A stretch of 64,000 nucleotides of DNA from Mycolicibacterium fortuitum subsp. fortuitum. GTDB taxonomy: Bacteria > Actinomycetota > Actinomycetes > Mycobacteriales > Mycobacteriaceae. Position numbers and translations under genes: made by a program. The DNA lies in contig NZ_AP025518.1 of the NCBI RefSeq assembly GCF_022179545.1, forward strand, positions 3,658,001 through 3,722,000. The letters are read 5' to 3'. The notes under the pieces were generated by a model that was not told where the DNA came from, searched no databases, and worked only from the letters and a program-made list of their open reading frames with translations. How positions within the stretch are numbered: the stretch's first letter is position 1; each line of letters starts with the position of its first letter. Shown here piece by piece: positions 2,137-57,935 of the stretch.

Positions 2137-4047
2137 TCATCGTCGCGGGCCTTCGCCGGTGCGACGCCTCAACATTCTTTGCACGAACCCTCCATTGTGC
2201 AGTATTGCGGCAACGAGTGTCCCAATACCAATCGTGACCAGCACCACCTGCAGGGCGGGCCCCCACTTGGTGGCCGGTGTCAGATCCGATTTCAGCCTGA
2301 TCTGGCTGTCAAGATAGGCGGGCTGGAAGAACTCCGTGCGGGCCAACTCCCGCCCGTCGGGAGCGATCATCGCACTGATGCCGGTGGTCCCGGCGACCAC
2401 CAGGTACCGGTCGTGTTCGACGGCGCGCAGTTTGCCGAACGCCAGCTGCTGTGCGCTCATGTTCTCGTCGAACGTCGCGTTGTTGGTGGGCACCGTCAGT
2501 ACCTGGGCGCCGCTGAGCACCGATTCTCTGGCGGCCCGGTCGAAGATCACCTCCCAGCAGGTGGTCACCCCGATCGGCACGCCGGCCGCATGCACGACGC
2601 CGTTGCCCTCGCCCGGAACGAAGTAGCCGGCCCGGTCGGCGTACGACGACAGGTGTTTGAAGAAACTGCGCCACGGCAGGTACTCGCCGAACGGTTGCAC
2701 GATCTTCTTGTCGTGACGCTCGCCCGCTCCGTGCTCGGGATCCCAGACGATCACGGTGTTGGTGGCCACCGGGTTGTCCGCGGTGTAGCCGTCGGCCTTG
2801 GTGACCGTGCCGACCAGGATCGGCGCGCCGATCGCATCGGCCGCTGCGGTGATCTGCGCCGCGGCATCGGCGTTGGCCAGCGGATCGATGTCGGAGGCGT
2901 TCTCCGGCCACACCACGAACATCGGCTGTGGGGCCCTGCCCGCCCGTACATCGTCGGCCAGCCGCTGCGTCTCCTTCACGTGGTTGTCGAGCACCGCGCG
3001 GCGCTGGGCGTTGAACTCGAGTCCGAGACGGGGCACGTTGCCCTGGACTGCGGCCACGGTGACGGACTGCTCGTCGCCGGCGCCGGTTCCGGAATGGCGG
3101 ACCTGCGGCCACAGCAGGGCGGTGGACAGCAGCACCACCGTGATGCTCAGACCCGGCAGCATGACCGCGGGGGCCGGGAAGCCCGGCTTGTGTCCGTGAT
3201 GCCACCACTGCACGATCTCGTACGCCAGGAGGGTGATGCTGAAGCCCACCAGCGCCACCGCGAGCGACAGCAGCGGTGCGCCGCCCCAGCGTGCCAGCGC
3301 CAGCAGCGGTCCGTTGGTCTGGCCGAATGCGAGGACGCCCCAAGGGAATCCGCCGAAGGGCACGGCCGATTTGAGCCACTCTTGAGTGCCCCACAGCGCG
3401 GCGAACCACAGCGGCCACCCTGGCAGTTGCCGGACCACCACAGCCGCCAGACCGAAGAGTCCGCAGAACAGCGCCTCCATGGCCGCCAGGGCCAGCCACG
3501 GAACCGCACCGACCAGACCGCTGATCCAGGGCAGCAAGGGGACATAGAACGCCAAGCCGAACAGGAATCCGTAGCCGAAGCCGCCGGCGCGAGTGGTGGA
3601 GCGCAGGGTCAGTACCCAGCCGATCAACGCCAGCCCGATGAAGGCCACCCACCACCAGCCGGTCGGCGGATAGCTCAGGCACAACGCGAGCCCGCCGGCG
3701 ACCGACGCGCTCAACTGCGCCCACCGCACAGCCGTGGCCCGGCCGAACCGAGACGCCCACGCCGCCACGACGGACCAGCGGTCGGGCGTGCCGTCCGCGC
3801 TCAGGCGATAGTCGAGCTCTTCGGGTTCCTCGTCGGGATCGATGTCGGCCACCGGATCACCGGTGACGTCCTCGTCCAGTTCCTCGAAGGACCCGTCATC
3901 GAGTGCATCGAGTTCGGCGAGTTCGTCATCCTCGATGGCGGGGATGACGTCGGTGGTCTCGTTTGGTGCCGGCCGCGGGCGGCCGAAACGGTCTGCGTTC
4001 AGGGGCCGCGGACGACCCGTCTTGTCTCTGGGACGGTCACTGCCCAT
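2137..4047 (-). CDS. lnt: Apolipoprotein N-acyltransferase Lnt
   Basis: Lnt adds the third acyl chain to the N-terminal cysteine of lipoproteins in the membrane. The 636-aa product has a long hydrophilic acidic N-terminal extension (about 90 residues), a hydrophobic multi-helix region and a C-terminal nitrilase domain. The catalytic triad is visible as Glu382 (VVWPEN), Lys447 ([13 protein letters not shown]) and Cys497 (TTCWEV), with E. coli-like spacing. The ATG at 4047 overlaps the end of the amidohydrolase gene by 11 bases, which fits translational coupling; the frame extends to 4209 but that part is antisense-like. It probably supports Ppm1 at the membrane. Confidence 0.93.
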
Positions 4048-53147: not shown

Positions 53148-53510
53148 TCACCGACGGCGGGTGTTGGTTCTCCGCGGGGTTCGCGATTGCCGCGCGGCTT
53201 CCAGTTCGGCGTTGCGCAGTTCCAGTTCGTTGTTGGCCGATTCCAGCTCGATGTTCTTGTCCTGCAGACTGAGGATCTGCCCGATGCCGACCAAATTGAT
53301 GCCCTGGTCGGCCAGTTCGGTGATTCGCCCCAGCCGCTCGATGTCGTCATCGCTGTAACGTCGGGTGCCGCCTGCGGTGCGCGCCGGTGTGAGAAGCCCT
53401 ATGCGCTCATACAGGCGCAGCGTCTGCGGTCCGATCCCGGACAGTTCGGCGGCCACCGAGATGCCGTACACGCCCAGTGCTGACCGGGCAGCCCCTCGGT
53501 CCTTCGTCAC
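53148..53510 (-). CDS. HspR-like MerR-family regulator
   Basis: The 120-aa protein has the HspR core: GISVAAELSGIGPQTLRLYE, RIGLLTPARTAGGTRRYSDD and NLVGIGQILSLQ, then a coiled-coil tail rich in Glu/Asn and a basic end. HspR represses dnaK-type heat-shock genes. No dnaK is visible nearby; a HAIR box (CTTGAG-n-CTCAAG) was not found in the adjoining 1 kb. Confidence 0.85.
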   Translation of the reverse strand: MTKDRGAARSALGVYGISVAAELSGIGPQTLRLYERIGLLTPARTAGGTRRYSDDDIERLGRITELADQGINLVGIGQILSLQDKNIELESANNELELRNAELEAARQSRTPRRTNTRRR

Positions 53511-54244: not shown

Positions 54245-54583
54245 CTCACACTCCCTCTTGCTCGGAATGCTCATGTCGTGCACGCGGTCACGCCGTGATC
54301 GCGGTCGTTTCCCGTTCAGTGGCAACCGCGATGCGACGTGGCTTGGCCGCTCAACCTCCGATCCCGTCAGATCAGAAATCTATGTCTTTCGACATACTTT
54401 TCATATACCACTGGCAATAGGTCGATGCAAGGAAAAACGCGTCTTACGCCTCACCTACTTCGCGGCGCCAGTCCCGTTACGGGCCGAGTGAGGTTAAGCG
54501 ACAACAGTTCCCGATACAGAGCCGGCAGAAGACGCGACTCCCGACGTGGACGAAGACCCGTGGCGAAGCGGCCGCCGGTACGC
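54245..54583. other. Non-coding region upstream of the CIRCE promoter
   Basis: No convincing ORF. An AT-rich patch at 54376-54420 includes a TATGTC-n4-GACATA inverted repeat (54381-54396). It may hold a promoter for the divergent small gene. Confidence 0.6.
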
Positions 54584-54615
54584 CATAATTAGCACTCGTC
54601 GGATCTGAGTGCTAA
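54584..54615 (+). promoter_or_regulatory. CIRCE element (HrcA operator) and promoter of the glycosyltransferase operon
   Basis: TTAGCACTC (54589-54597), 9 bases, GAGTGCTAA (54607-54615) is a perfect CIRCE. A CATAAT -10-like box at 54584-54589 and a TGGCGA box 17 bases upstream make a plausible promoter whose start site falls inside the operator. It lies 27 bases before the GTG at 54643. CIRCE is bound by HrcA, the heat-shock repressor of groEL operons. Confidence 0.92.
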
Positions 54616-54642
54616 CGCCGCCCCGTGTCAAAGGAGGTAAAT

Positions 54643-55803
54643 GTGAGCGGCACTGACTTCGCCATCCCCACCGAAGCCGTCGAACCGATGCGTATCGCGT
54701 TGGTTGCACCACCGTATTTCGACATTCCGCCCAAGGGCTACGGGGGCACCGAGGCCGTGGTCGCCGATTTGGCAGATGCGCTCACCGCGCGCGGCCACCT
54801 CGTCACCCTTCTGGGCGCGGGCCAAAGCGGCACGACCGCCCAGCGTTTCATTCCGCTGTGGGAAAGCACCGTGCCCGACCGGTTGGGCCAGCCCTACCCC
54901 GAAATCATGCACGCGGTCAAGGTGCGCCGGGCAATCGAGAGACTCGCCGAAACCGATGGAATCGACCTCGTCCACGACCACACCTTCGCCGGCCCGCTCA
55001 ATGCGGCTGTCCACCGCTCGCTGGGTCTGCCCACGGTGCTGACCATGCACGGGCCGATCGATGACGACCTGTATCCGTACTACCGTGAGCTGGGCACCGA
55101 CGTGGGCCTGATCGCAATCAGTGACCGCCAGCGCGAGCTGGCCCCGGACCTGAATTGGGTTGGCCGCGTGCACAATGCGTTGCGGATCAGCGATTGGCCA
55201 TTTCGCAGCGACAAAGGCGACTATGCGTTGTTCCTCGGTCGCTATGCCCCGTACAAGGGCGCGCACCTGGCGTTGGACGCCGCCCATGCGGCCGGCGTTC
55301 CGCTCGTGCTGGCCGGAAAGTGCGATGAACCTGCTGAGCGGGCCTACTTCGAGGAGTACGTGCGACCGCGCCTTACCGACAAAGACCACGTGTTCGGGCA
55401 GGCCGATGCGGTCAGTAAGCGAAAGCTGCTCGCGGGCGCCCGGTGTCTGCTGTTCCCGGTGCAGTGGGAAGAGCCGTTCGGGATGGTGATGATCGAAGCG
55501 ATGGCCTGCGGTACGCCGGTGGTGGCCTTGCGCGGCGGCGCGGTGCCAGAGGTGGTGGTCGACTGTGTGACCGGATTCGTCTGCGATCATCCCGATGAGC
55601 TCGCCGATGCCGTGACCAAGACCCATACCCTCGATCCGGCGGCCTGCCGTCGCCATGTGGCCGCGCACTTCGCCGTCGGACAGTTCGGTTCGGGATACGA
55701 GCGGATCTACCGCGACGTGCTGAGCAACGCAGACGCCGCGAAATCCACGATCACGTTGCGACGCGTCGTCGAGCCGGACACCTCCGAGCGGGCCACCGCA
55801 TGA
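54643..55803 (+). CDS. GT4-family glycosyltransferase under CIRCE control
   Basis: The 386-aa product (GTG 54643, AAGGAGG site) has the GT4 fold: GYGGTEAVVADLADALTARG in the N-domain, LFLGRYAPYKGAHLALDAAH and the E-x7-E motif EEPFGMVMIEAMACGTPV in the C-domain. The sugar donor and acceptor are unknown. It overlaps the next gene by ATGA, so both are controlled by CIRCE. Confidence 0.9.
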   Translation: MSGTDFAIPTEAVEPMRIALVAPPYFDIPPKGYGGTEAVVADLADALTARGHLVTLLGAGQSGTTAQRFIPLWESTVPDRLGQPYPEIMHAVKVRRAIERLAETDGIDLVHDHTFAGPLNAAVHRSLGLPTVLTMHGPIDDDLYPYYRELGTDVGLIAISDRQRELAPDLNWVGRVHNALRISDWPFRSDKGDYALFLGRYAPYKGAHLALDAAHAAGVPLVLAGKCDEPAERAYFEEYVRPRLTDKDHVFGQADAVSKRKLLAGARCLLFPVQWEEPFGMVMIEAMACGTPVVALRGGAVPEVVVDCVTGFVCDHPDELADAVTKTHTLDPAACRRHVAAHFAVGQFGSGYERIYRDVLSNADAAKSTITLRRVVEPDTSERATA

Positions 55804-57935
55804 GTGGCACAGGGATTCTCAATGGCGGCGAGCCGGCCGCCATCGGCGTCGGGGGCGGCGGCGGCGACACGGTGACGCTGGTGGAAGGTGCCACCTTCTG
55901 TCTGTCGGACAGCCACGGTGACATTCAGCCTGGCCGTACTCACGGGCTGTTTTTTCGCGATGCCCGCCTGCTGTCGCGATGGGAGCTGCGCGTCGACGGT
56001 CGGCCGTTGGAGCCGCTCTCGGTGCAGCTCCCGGAAGCCTTTGCTGCCCAGTTCATCTCGCGCCGCACGCCGCGCCCTGGATTGGCCGATAGCACGCTGT
56101 TGGCCGTGCGGGAGCGAATCGTGGACGACGGCCTGCGTGAGACCGTGACTCTGCACAACCTGGCAGCAGAAAGCACGGTGGTCGCCGTCGAGCTACATGT
56201 CGACGCCGACTTCGCCGACCTGTTCACAGTCAAGGAGGGCCGCGTACCCCACGGCGGCGCCGACATGACGGTCGTCAGCGGCGAGCTGGTGCTCCATGAT
56301 CGCACCGAGGCAGTGCGGGGTTTGACCGTGAGAGCGTCCGGCGAGCCCACCGTGACGCCCGGCGCTTTCACCTGGCGCATCGTGGTGCCACCGCGGCAGC
56401 GCTGGCAGGCCGAAATCCTGGTGCAGCCCACCGGTGCCGCACACAGCGTCAACAGCCGGAGCCGTAGCGGCGACCGCCTGCAGTCCAGTGCGCCGGCCCA
56501 GAAGATCGAGGCGTGGCGGGACGTCACCACGACGGTCGAGACGGACCACTCCGGCCTCTCGAGTGCCTTGCGGCGCAGCGAAAGTGACCTCGCTGCGTTG
56601 CTCATTCATGACGACAGCGGCGAAGGCGACCCGTTCGTGGCGGCCGGGGCGCCTTGGTACATGACGTTGTTCGGCCGCGACAGCCTGCTGACGGCCTGGA
56701 TGGCGCTCCCGCTGGATCCCGGCCTGTCGGTGGGCACACTGCGGCAACTGGCCGAAGCGCAGGGCCAGCGCCTGGACCCGATCACCGAAGAGCAGCCCGG
56801 CCGGATCCTGCACGAGATCCGGCGCGGGCCGGCCAGCACCGACGTACTGGGTGGGGCTGTGTACTACGGAGCGGTCGACGCCACCCCGTTGTTCGTGATG
56901 CTGCTCGCCGAATGCTGGCGCTGGGGATGCGACGAGGATTTCGTCCGGTCGCTGCTGCCCGCTGCCGACTCGGCGTTGGGCTGGGCGGCGCGCTACGGCG
57001 ATCGCGACGGCGATGGGTTCATCGAGTACCGCCGAGCCACGGACCGGGGATTGATCAATCAGGGCTGGAAGGACAGCTTCGACGGGATCAATGACGCCCG
57101 CGGCCATGTGGCCGAGCCGCCGATTGCGTTGTGCGAGGTGCAGGGCTACCAGTACGCCGCGTTGCGTGCGCGTGCGCAGCTTGCCGAGGCATTCGACGAG
57201 CCGGCTACCGCCAGCCGACTCAACGATCGCGCGGAGCGATTGCGCACGCAGTTCCAGGAGTCGTTCTGGTTGCCGGACGCCGGCTGCTATGCGATCGCCC
57301 TAGACGGAGCCAAGCGTCCGGTAGATGCCCTGACCAGCAATGTCGGGCATTGCCTGTGGACCGGCATCGCCGCGGACGAACACGTGGAAACGATCATCGG
57401 CAGGCTCGGCGATGAGGACATGGACAGTGGCTTCGGCCTGCGCACGCTGGCGAGGTCGATGGGGGCATACAACCCGATGAGCTACCACAACGGATCGGTC
57501 TGGCCACATGACACCGCGATCGCCGTGGCGGGGCTGATGCGGTACCGACATGTGCCGGGGGCCGTCGAACTGGCCCAGCGGTTGGCCACCGGCCTCCTCG
57601 ACGCCGCCACCGCGTTCGGCGGTCGGCTACCCGAACTGTATTGCGGTTTCCCACGTTCCGAATTCAGCTCGCCCGTCCCCTATCCCACCTCATGCTCTCC
57701 GCAAGCGTGGGCAAGCGCAGCACCGCTGCTGCTGGTGCGGGCATTCCTCGGCCTGGAGCCGGACGCGCCTGCGCGGCGCATCACGGTCTCGCCGTGCCTG
57801 CCGGGCTCGTGGGGCCGTACCGCTTTGACGAACCTGAGATTGGGTGGCACGACGGTTCATATCGAGGCGGAAGGACAGAGTGCGAAGGTCAGTGGCCTGC
57901 CCGACGGATGGGAAGTGCTGACCCCTCAGGATTGA
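55800..57935 (+). CDS. Glycogen-debranching-type amylo-alpha-1,6-glucosidase
   Basis: The 711-aa protein has an N-terminal GDE_N-like beta domain (about 25-230; GRTHGLFFRDARLLSRWEL) and an (alpha/alpha)6 barrel with WYMTLFGRDSLLTAWMAL, NQGWKDSFDGI and YHNGSVWPHDTAIAVAG, as in bacterial GDE and MGH-like glucosidases. Acidic residues in FGRDS and KDSFD are candidates for catalysis. It probably trims or debranches alpha-glucans, paired with the glycosyltransferase. Confidence 0.86.
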   Translation: MSGTGILNGGEPAAIGVGGGGGDTVTLVEGATFCLSDSHGDIQPGRTHGLFFRDARLLSRWELRVDGRPLEPLSVQLPEAFAAQFISRRTPRPGLADSTLLAVRERIVDDGLRETVTLHNLAAESTVVAVELHVDADFADLFTVKEGRVPHGGADMTVVSGELVLHDRTEAVRGLTVRASGEPTVTPGAFTWRIVVPPRQRWQAEILVQPTGAAHSVNSRSRSGDRLQSSAPAQKIEAWRDVTTTVETDHSGLSSALRRSESDLAALLIHDDSGEGDPFVAAGAPWYMTLFGRDSLLTAWMALPLDPGLSVGTLRQLAEAQGQRLDPITEEQPGRILHEIRRGPASTDVLGGAVYYGAVDATPLFVMLLAECWRWGCDEDFVRSLLPAADSALGWAARYGDRDGDGFIEYRRATDRGLINQGWKDSFDGINDARGHVAEPPIALCEVQGYQYAALRARAQLAEAFDEPATASRLNDRAERLRTQFQESFWLPDAGCYAIALDGAKRPVDALTSNVGHCLWTGIAADEHVETIIGRLGDEDMDSGFGLRTLARSMGAYNPMSYHNGSVWPHDTAIAVAGLMRYRHVPGAVELAQRLATGLLDAATAFGGRLPELYCGFPRSEFSSPVPYPTSCSPQAWASAAPLLLVRAFLGLEPDAPARRITVSPCLPGSWGRTALTNLRLGGTTVHIEAEGQSAKVSGLPDGWEVLTPQD

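Follow-up and report, generated by a model that had tools for sequence, protein, structure and literature searches.

A perfect CIRCE element in front of a glycosyltransferase–glycoside hydrolase operon: a possible metabolic branch of the HrcA regulon in some mycobacteria and Pseudonocardiaceae

The best-known role of HrcA is to repress chaperonin genes, and GroEL titration as a route by which HrcA is disabled is known from Bacillus. In Mycobacterium tuberculosis, the direct targets of the HrcA/CIRCE regulon named in the accessible part of one report are groES, groEL1, groEL2 and ruc (PMC7448276). Among enzymes, the nearest solved relative of the glycosyltransferase considered here is TeGSS, the glucosylsucrose synthase tll1591 of Thermosynechococcus elongatus (7fg9, 7fga), which is likewise a GT4 enzyme; as far as the accessible text goes, it makes soluble oligosaccharides, which build up in cyanobacteria exposed to salt and heat (PMC9909042). 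An archaeal enzyme named amylo-alpha-1,6-glucosidase removes alpha-1,6 branches, according to the accessible text of PMC9142091.

The window analyzed in this study is a stretch of 64,000 bases (3658001-3722000) of one 6,406,072-base contig. It holds a two-gene operon encoding a GT4 glycosyltransferase (GT) and a glycoside hydrolase (GDE), with the following features in window positions:

54560..54565, + strand: -35-like hexamer GTGGCG, read from the sequence, 18 bases before the -10 and weak by itself
54584..54589, + strand: -10-like CATAAT, read from the sequence, its last base being the first of the CIRCE
54589..54615, + strand: CIRCE of 9-9-9 layout, predicted HrcA operator, perfect in a pattern scan
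54632..54637, + strand: ribosome-binding site AGGAGG, read from the sequence, five bases upstream of GTG 54643
54643..55803, + strand: GT4 glycosyltransferase gene, from Pfam and a PDB sequence search (nearest solved relative TeGSS, 7fg9)
55800..57935, + strand: GDE_N_bis / MGH1-like glycoside hydrolase gene, from Pfam and a profile match to 7vma

The CIRCE reads TTAGCACTC-GTCGGATCT-GAGTGCTAA (54589-54615) and agrees at 0 mismatches with the 9-9-9 inverted repeat TTAGCACTC-N9-GAGTGCTAA used to recognize such sites. It is the only match in the window at up to 3 mismatches, a search in which shuffled sequences gave a mean of 0.01. An earlier note had described a perfect CIRCE 27 bases before a GTG with a ribosome site, overlapping a plausible promoter and heading GT4 and GDE genes coupled by ATGA, and this description was borne out. 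The end of the site lies 27 bases from GTG 54643, and the two translationally coupled genes overlap by ATGA at 55800-55803. Pfam domains scored over cut-off in both products (Glyco_transf_4 and Glycos_transf_1 in GT; GDE_N_bis, MGH1-like_GH and GDE_C in GDE). The span of 54584-54615 given for the element needs trimming: 54589-54615 is CIRCE, and the first five bases (54584-54588) belong to the -10-like CATAAT. We prefer GTG 54643 to GTG 54625, the GT start of the open reading frame list, because the latter would place the ribosome site inside the gene. Judged by sequence, the operator overlaps the operon promoter, the CATAAT touching the CIRCE, and this arrangement is conserved in mycobacteria (consensus CCATAAT just before the CIRCE in 45 promoters). 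TTGGCR-like sequences stand at about the matching -35 position in many relatives. There are no HAIR (HspR) sites in the window at up to 3 mismatches, and upstream of GT in the named loci HAIR gave only two matches, with 4 mismatches each.

The same note had proposed a genome search for CIRCE before this gene pair. When 396 Mycobacterium genomes were searched with GT (cut-off 1e-60), 59 gave a match: 43 carry a first-copy pair (GT 68-100% identical with GDE directly behind, one per genome), two a lone GT (G028, G079), and 14 only distant relatives at 38-44% identity. Loci were taken for 58 of the 67 matches listed, the nine omitted being 38-43% identical, and some species are represented both here and among the named loci treated below (e.g., L012/L116, L040/L112, L015/L133); all 43 first-copy pairs come from the present set. 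The CIRCE before the pair is not a matter of chance, since all 43 of the 43 first-copy pairs have one in front, with 0, 1, 2 and 3 mismatches in 19, 20, 3 and 1 of them, 98-182 bases before the codon of GT residue 16. The 58 loci together gave 44 forward sites and 0 matches in the reversed control; the 44th adjoins the lone GT of L139 but faces another gene. Sites were counted at up to 3 mismatches only; at 5, the reversed control itself gave 16 matches in L092-L149 and 7 in L012-L091. CIRCE was absent from three of three second copies of the pair (L135-L137), nor does one lie upstream of six GTs whose fetched stretch contains no GDE (L138-L143) or of six distant pairs (L144-L149). In the second copies the pair is followed directly, on the same strand, by hsp20; perhaps they perform the same function under another stress regulator. 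A DosR-like box before these copies was discarded, the best candidate having 3 mismatches, a score that shuffled sequence reached too.

Outside the genus, the same pair with CIRCE occurs in Pseudonocardiaceae. Among 80 named loci found via GDE, some of which have no GT in the fetched stretch or have it elsewhere, 12 carry CIRCE, always before GT (five Mycobacterium, Amycolatopsis thermalba, Prauserella, two Saccharothrix, Lentzea and two Nocardia). Across the order, a search of 397 genomes (cut-off 1e-120; 32 with a match) provided 27 loci, L150-L176, with five matches left out and two loci, L151 and L176, repeating genomes already covered; 12 of the 27, two of them Mycobacterium, have CIRCE at 0-1 mismatch. 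The site of L153 is damaged (five mismatches), and CIRCE is absent from nine of nine loci of a second genus of the same family in this set, which lie among Nocardia in the tree. If every distinct GT (at least 56% identity, GDE directly behind) is counted a single time, CIRCE precedes 60 of 101 distinct pairs; it is upstream of GT in 0 of the 33 rows, out of 134, excluded for identity below 56% or for having no GDE directly behind. A tree of 133 GT rows accounts for the distribution of CIRCE with 6 changes, where shuffled labels require 43.9 on average; this clustering is inflated by near-copies, and the tree has several deep branches open. In the main mycobacterial clade 45 of 47 rows have the site, as do 12 of 13 in the Pseudonocardiaceae clade and 2 of 20 and 0 of 16 in two Nocardia clades. 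Since most Nocardia pair loci have no CIRCE, the pair can work without it. A diverged CIRCE with a 9-base spacer was sought in the loci without a site and rejected, the best matches, with 6-10 mismatches, being no closer than those of shuffled sequence. With free spacing, for which there is no shuffle control, L019 gave 4 mismatches and L016, L064, L043 and L069 gave 5. In three of these loci, all Nocardia (L016, L019, L064), the CIRCE-like half-sites lie 18-19 bases apart, about one helical turn beyond the usual 9, reflecting either decay or an altered operator.

When 45 mycobacterial promoters were aligned on the site, the arms held 1.84 bits per base and the spacer 0.88, with 1.09 in the ten bases before the CIRCE, 0.34 further upstream and 0.57 downstream. 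In 14 non-mycobacterial promoters the arms reached 1.91 bits, the spacer 0.70 and the flanks about 0.5, and the -10 is not conserved (0.55 bits). These figures omit one of the 60 sites (L172), which lies at the edge of its 250-base stretch. The profile over arms, spacer and flanks therefore indicates that selection holds the operator and, in mycobacteria, the touching -10, a geometry that would amount to repression by occlusion.

The genome encodes hrcA (one match over cut-off, 293.5 bits against 197.2). Its 6.4 Mb hold 8 CIRCE sites at up to 3 mismatches, against 0 in the reversed control, and that of the operon is the only perfect one. One of the others lies before hsp20 (L006:3001-3027), one before groES-groEL1, two before groEL2 and two before identical copies of a zinc-ribbon gene, which by sight we take to be ruc; Pfam confirmed Hsp20, Cpn10, Cpn60 and the zinc ribbon behind these sites. 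The two ruc-like copies and their CIRCE sites are part of a repeat of 8,027 bases (contig positions 5085099-5093125 and 5166917-5174943, 82 kb apart) with 0 differences, which reflects either recent duplication of a large segment or an artefact of assembly. The remaining site, at 3231496 with 3 mismatches, was taken as chance, yet an open reading frame starts about 115 bases behind it.

Twenty-four Mycobacterium genomes, of which 16 have the pair and 8 gave no GT match, were surveyed at up to 2 mismatches; they hold 3-7 CIRCE sites each, and the reversed control gave none. Nine sites unlike those of groE, ruc or GT among the matches listed were fetched: eight lie about 70 bases before hsp20 (L185-L192) and one before an AhpC-TSA gene (L193). 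In this genome, too, the hsp20 CIRCE is about 70 bases upstream, and perfect sites precede hsp20 in two genomes without the pair (L185, L186). The gene hsp20 is thus a further predicted HrcA target, absent from the four of M. tuberculosis. The L193 site (3001-3027, 2 mismatches) is the one already met at L139; it lies between the lone GT and the AhpC-TSA gene on the same strand, and that gene is a possible one-off HrcA target by prediction. From the targets examined, CIRCE sites thus stand before chaperone genes, a single redox gene and, in genomes that have it, the GT-GDE operon. Because six of the seven other sites in this genome precede groES-groEL1, groEL2, the ruc-like gene or hsp20, the pair appears to be the single metabolic operon in a predicted chaperone regulon.

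TeGSS is by far the best solved relative of GT (E 9.4e-63, residues 16-363; next different protein 4.1e-21). Of the residues described in the accessible part of PMC9909042, the UDP-contacting Tyr18, Arg179, Lys184 and Glu256 are all kept. The acceptor rim differs: 4 of 11 residues are kept (Tyr18, Tyr70, Lys184, Trp254) and 6 are altered (Trp10, Glu74, Tyr97, Arg117, Thr119, Asn122), with Glu265 left unscored as residue numbering in the accessible text is inconsistent. Sucrose-phosphate synthase, the source of sucrose, was sought in the genome; the best match scored 76.5 bits where the cut-off is 576, and similar weak matches occur in all 14 control genomes. Because six rim residues differ and no sucrose-phosphate synthase passes the cut-off, the TeGSS product cannot be read across. 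GT would rather be a retaining, UDP-sugar-dependent transferase with an acceptor other than that of TeGSS, trehalose or another small sugar being candidates. It fails glycogen synthase models (75 bits against 302 for the nearest).

Unlike TeGSS, GT is paired with a hydrolase. GDE, whose nearest named relatives are Mycobacterium proteins, is well conserved (mean column identity 77% over 15 aligned sequences) and matches the profile of 7vma, an archaeal-type amylo-alpha-1,6-glucosidase, at E 1.6e-92. The catalytic domains of both contain the stretches GWKDS.DGI and LPELY.G, whereas the N-terminal domain matches at 13.5 bits only, and GDE fails the archaeal debranching model (gde_arch, NCBIfam TIGR01561) with 25.2 bits against 364.15. 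GDE is also present in Mycolicibacterium phlei. An AlphaFold model of GDE from 15 sequences had a mean pLDDT of 51.8 and was not used for a fold search.

The surroundings of the pair were compared over 103 loci, five near-duplicates having been dropped beforehand. In 10 of them the fetched flanks include an Hsp20 gene, in keeping with a role in stress. A sensor-kinase gene, Pfam-checked in one member (L123), flanks the pair in 10 of the 103 loci, among them the mycobacterial pairs L122-L126, L129 and L130, where by sight we take it to resemble MprB. About 1.1 kb from the operon in the window lies an HspR-like MerR gene (53148-53510, - strand), which scored 104 against the NCBIfam HspR cut-off of 105, one bit short. 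HspR-like genes are near the pair also in L015, L040, L131 and L134, and in those four loci an hsp20 gene is present too.

It could be argued that the CIRCE is inherited but idle, as Nocardia relatives live without one, or that it serves a gene on the opposite strand. However, its arms are conserved far above spacer and flanks over many species, and upstream genes vary between lineages while the GT side stays constant, which makes either possibility highly improbable. We consider the CIRCE to be very probably a working HrcA operator, and induction of the operon by heat through HrcA is to be expected with nearly the same confidence. The earlier note had linked folding stress to alpha-glucan metabolism. 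Its regulatory half, predicted HrcA control of a non-chaperone operon, is strongly supported by conservation, whereas "alpha-glucan" and "debranching" rest on a family name, with GT nearest a glucosylsucrose synthase.

HrcA might control the operon and the enzymes nevertheless remodel glycogen or another alpha-glucan, trimming branches and freeing carbon for trehalose, with no dedicated protectant. The GDE_C and GDE_N_bis domains, the match of the catalytic domain to 7vma, whose entry names it an archaeal amylo-alpha-1,6-glucosidase, and the branch removal described for its archaeal namesake in the accessible part of PMC9142091 all speak for this. Both enzymes nevertheless fall far below their models (GT 75 of 302 bits for glycogen synthase, GDE 25.2 of 364 for archaeal debranching), and the kinship of GT is to an oligosaccharide synthase, so that we regard glycogen remodelling as unlikely. 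Less probable still is a surface stress response in which the two enzymes, under HrcA control, assemble or trim a glycan of the envelope or capsule. Surface glycans are a frequent product of GT4 enzymes, and the MprB-like kinase would fit; however, the 28 commonest neighbor clusters, judged by sight, contain no lipid carrier, transporter or polymerase gene, and the TeGSS products described in the accessible part of PMC9909042 are soluble. A protective oligosaccharide is therefore a better, if unproven, guess than alpha-glucan debranching, and we favor a glucosyl-oligosaccharide protectant that is made and recycled, its identity being a guess.

We thus propose that the GT-GDE operon belongs to the HrcA regulon. 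In unstressed cells HrcA would sit on the CIRCE, over the -10 and the start site, and block transcription. Heat or misfolded protein would disable HrcA, by GroEL titration or, as in M. tuberculosis, by its proteasomal removal, and the operon would then be induced alongside groES-groEL1, groEL2, ruc and hsp20. GT would add a sugar, probably glucose from UDP-glucose as we infer from its kinship, to a small acceptor sugar; trimming or recycling of the product would fall to the coupled hydrolase. This regulatory claim, together with a make-and-recycle enzyme pair, seems to us likely. The product may be a compatible solute that works beside the protein chaperones as their small-molecule partner; that it is a dedicated protectant falls a little short of an even chance. 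The whole proposal, in which a single repressor, HrcA, sets free both the protein chaperones and a small-molecule chaperone, a glucosyl-oligosaccharide heat protectant forming the metabolic arm of the regulon in certain mycobacteria and Pseudonocardiaceae, is slightly more tentative. It points to a stress sugar to look for directly in heat-shocked mycobacteria.

The literature searched, which left most subscription papers and all regulon databases outside, gave no account of a CIRCE-bearing GT-GDE operon. The operator is of the textbook kind and its target is unusual; a conserved metabolic target would mean that HrcA, a sensor of folding stress, also sets sugar chemistry. Compared with M. tuberculosis as described in the accessible part of PMC7448276, the operator is the same and the same partner genes carry CIRCE here. 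The predicted mycobacterial HrcA regulon is widened by hsp20 and this two-gene carbohydrate operon, both outside the four direct targets named there.
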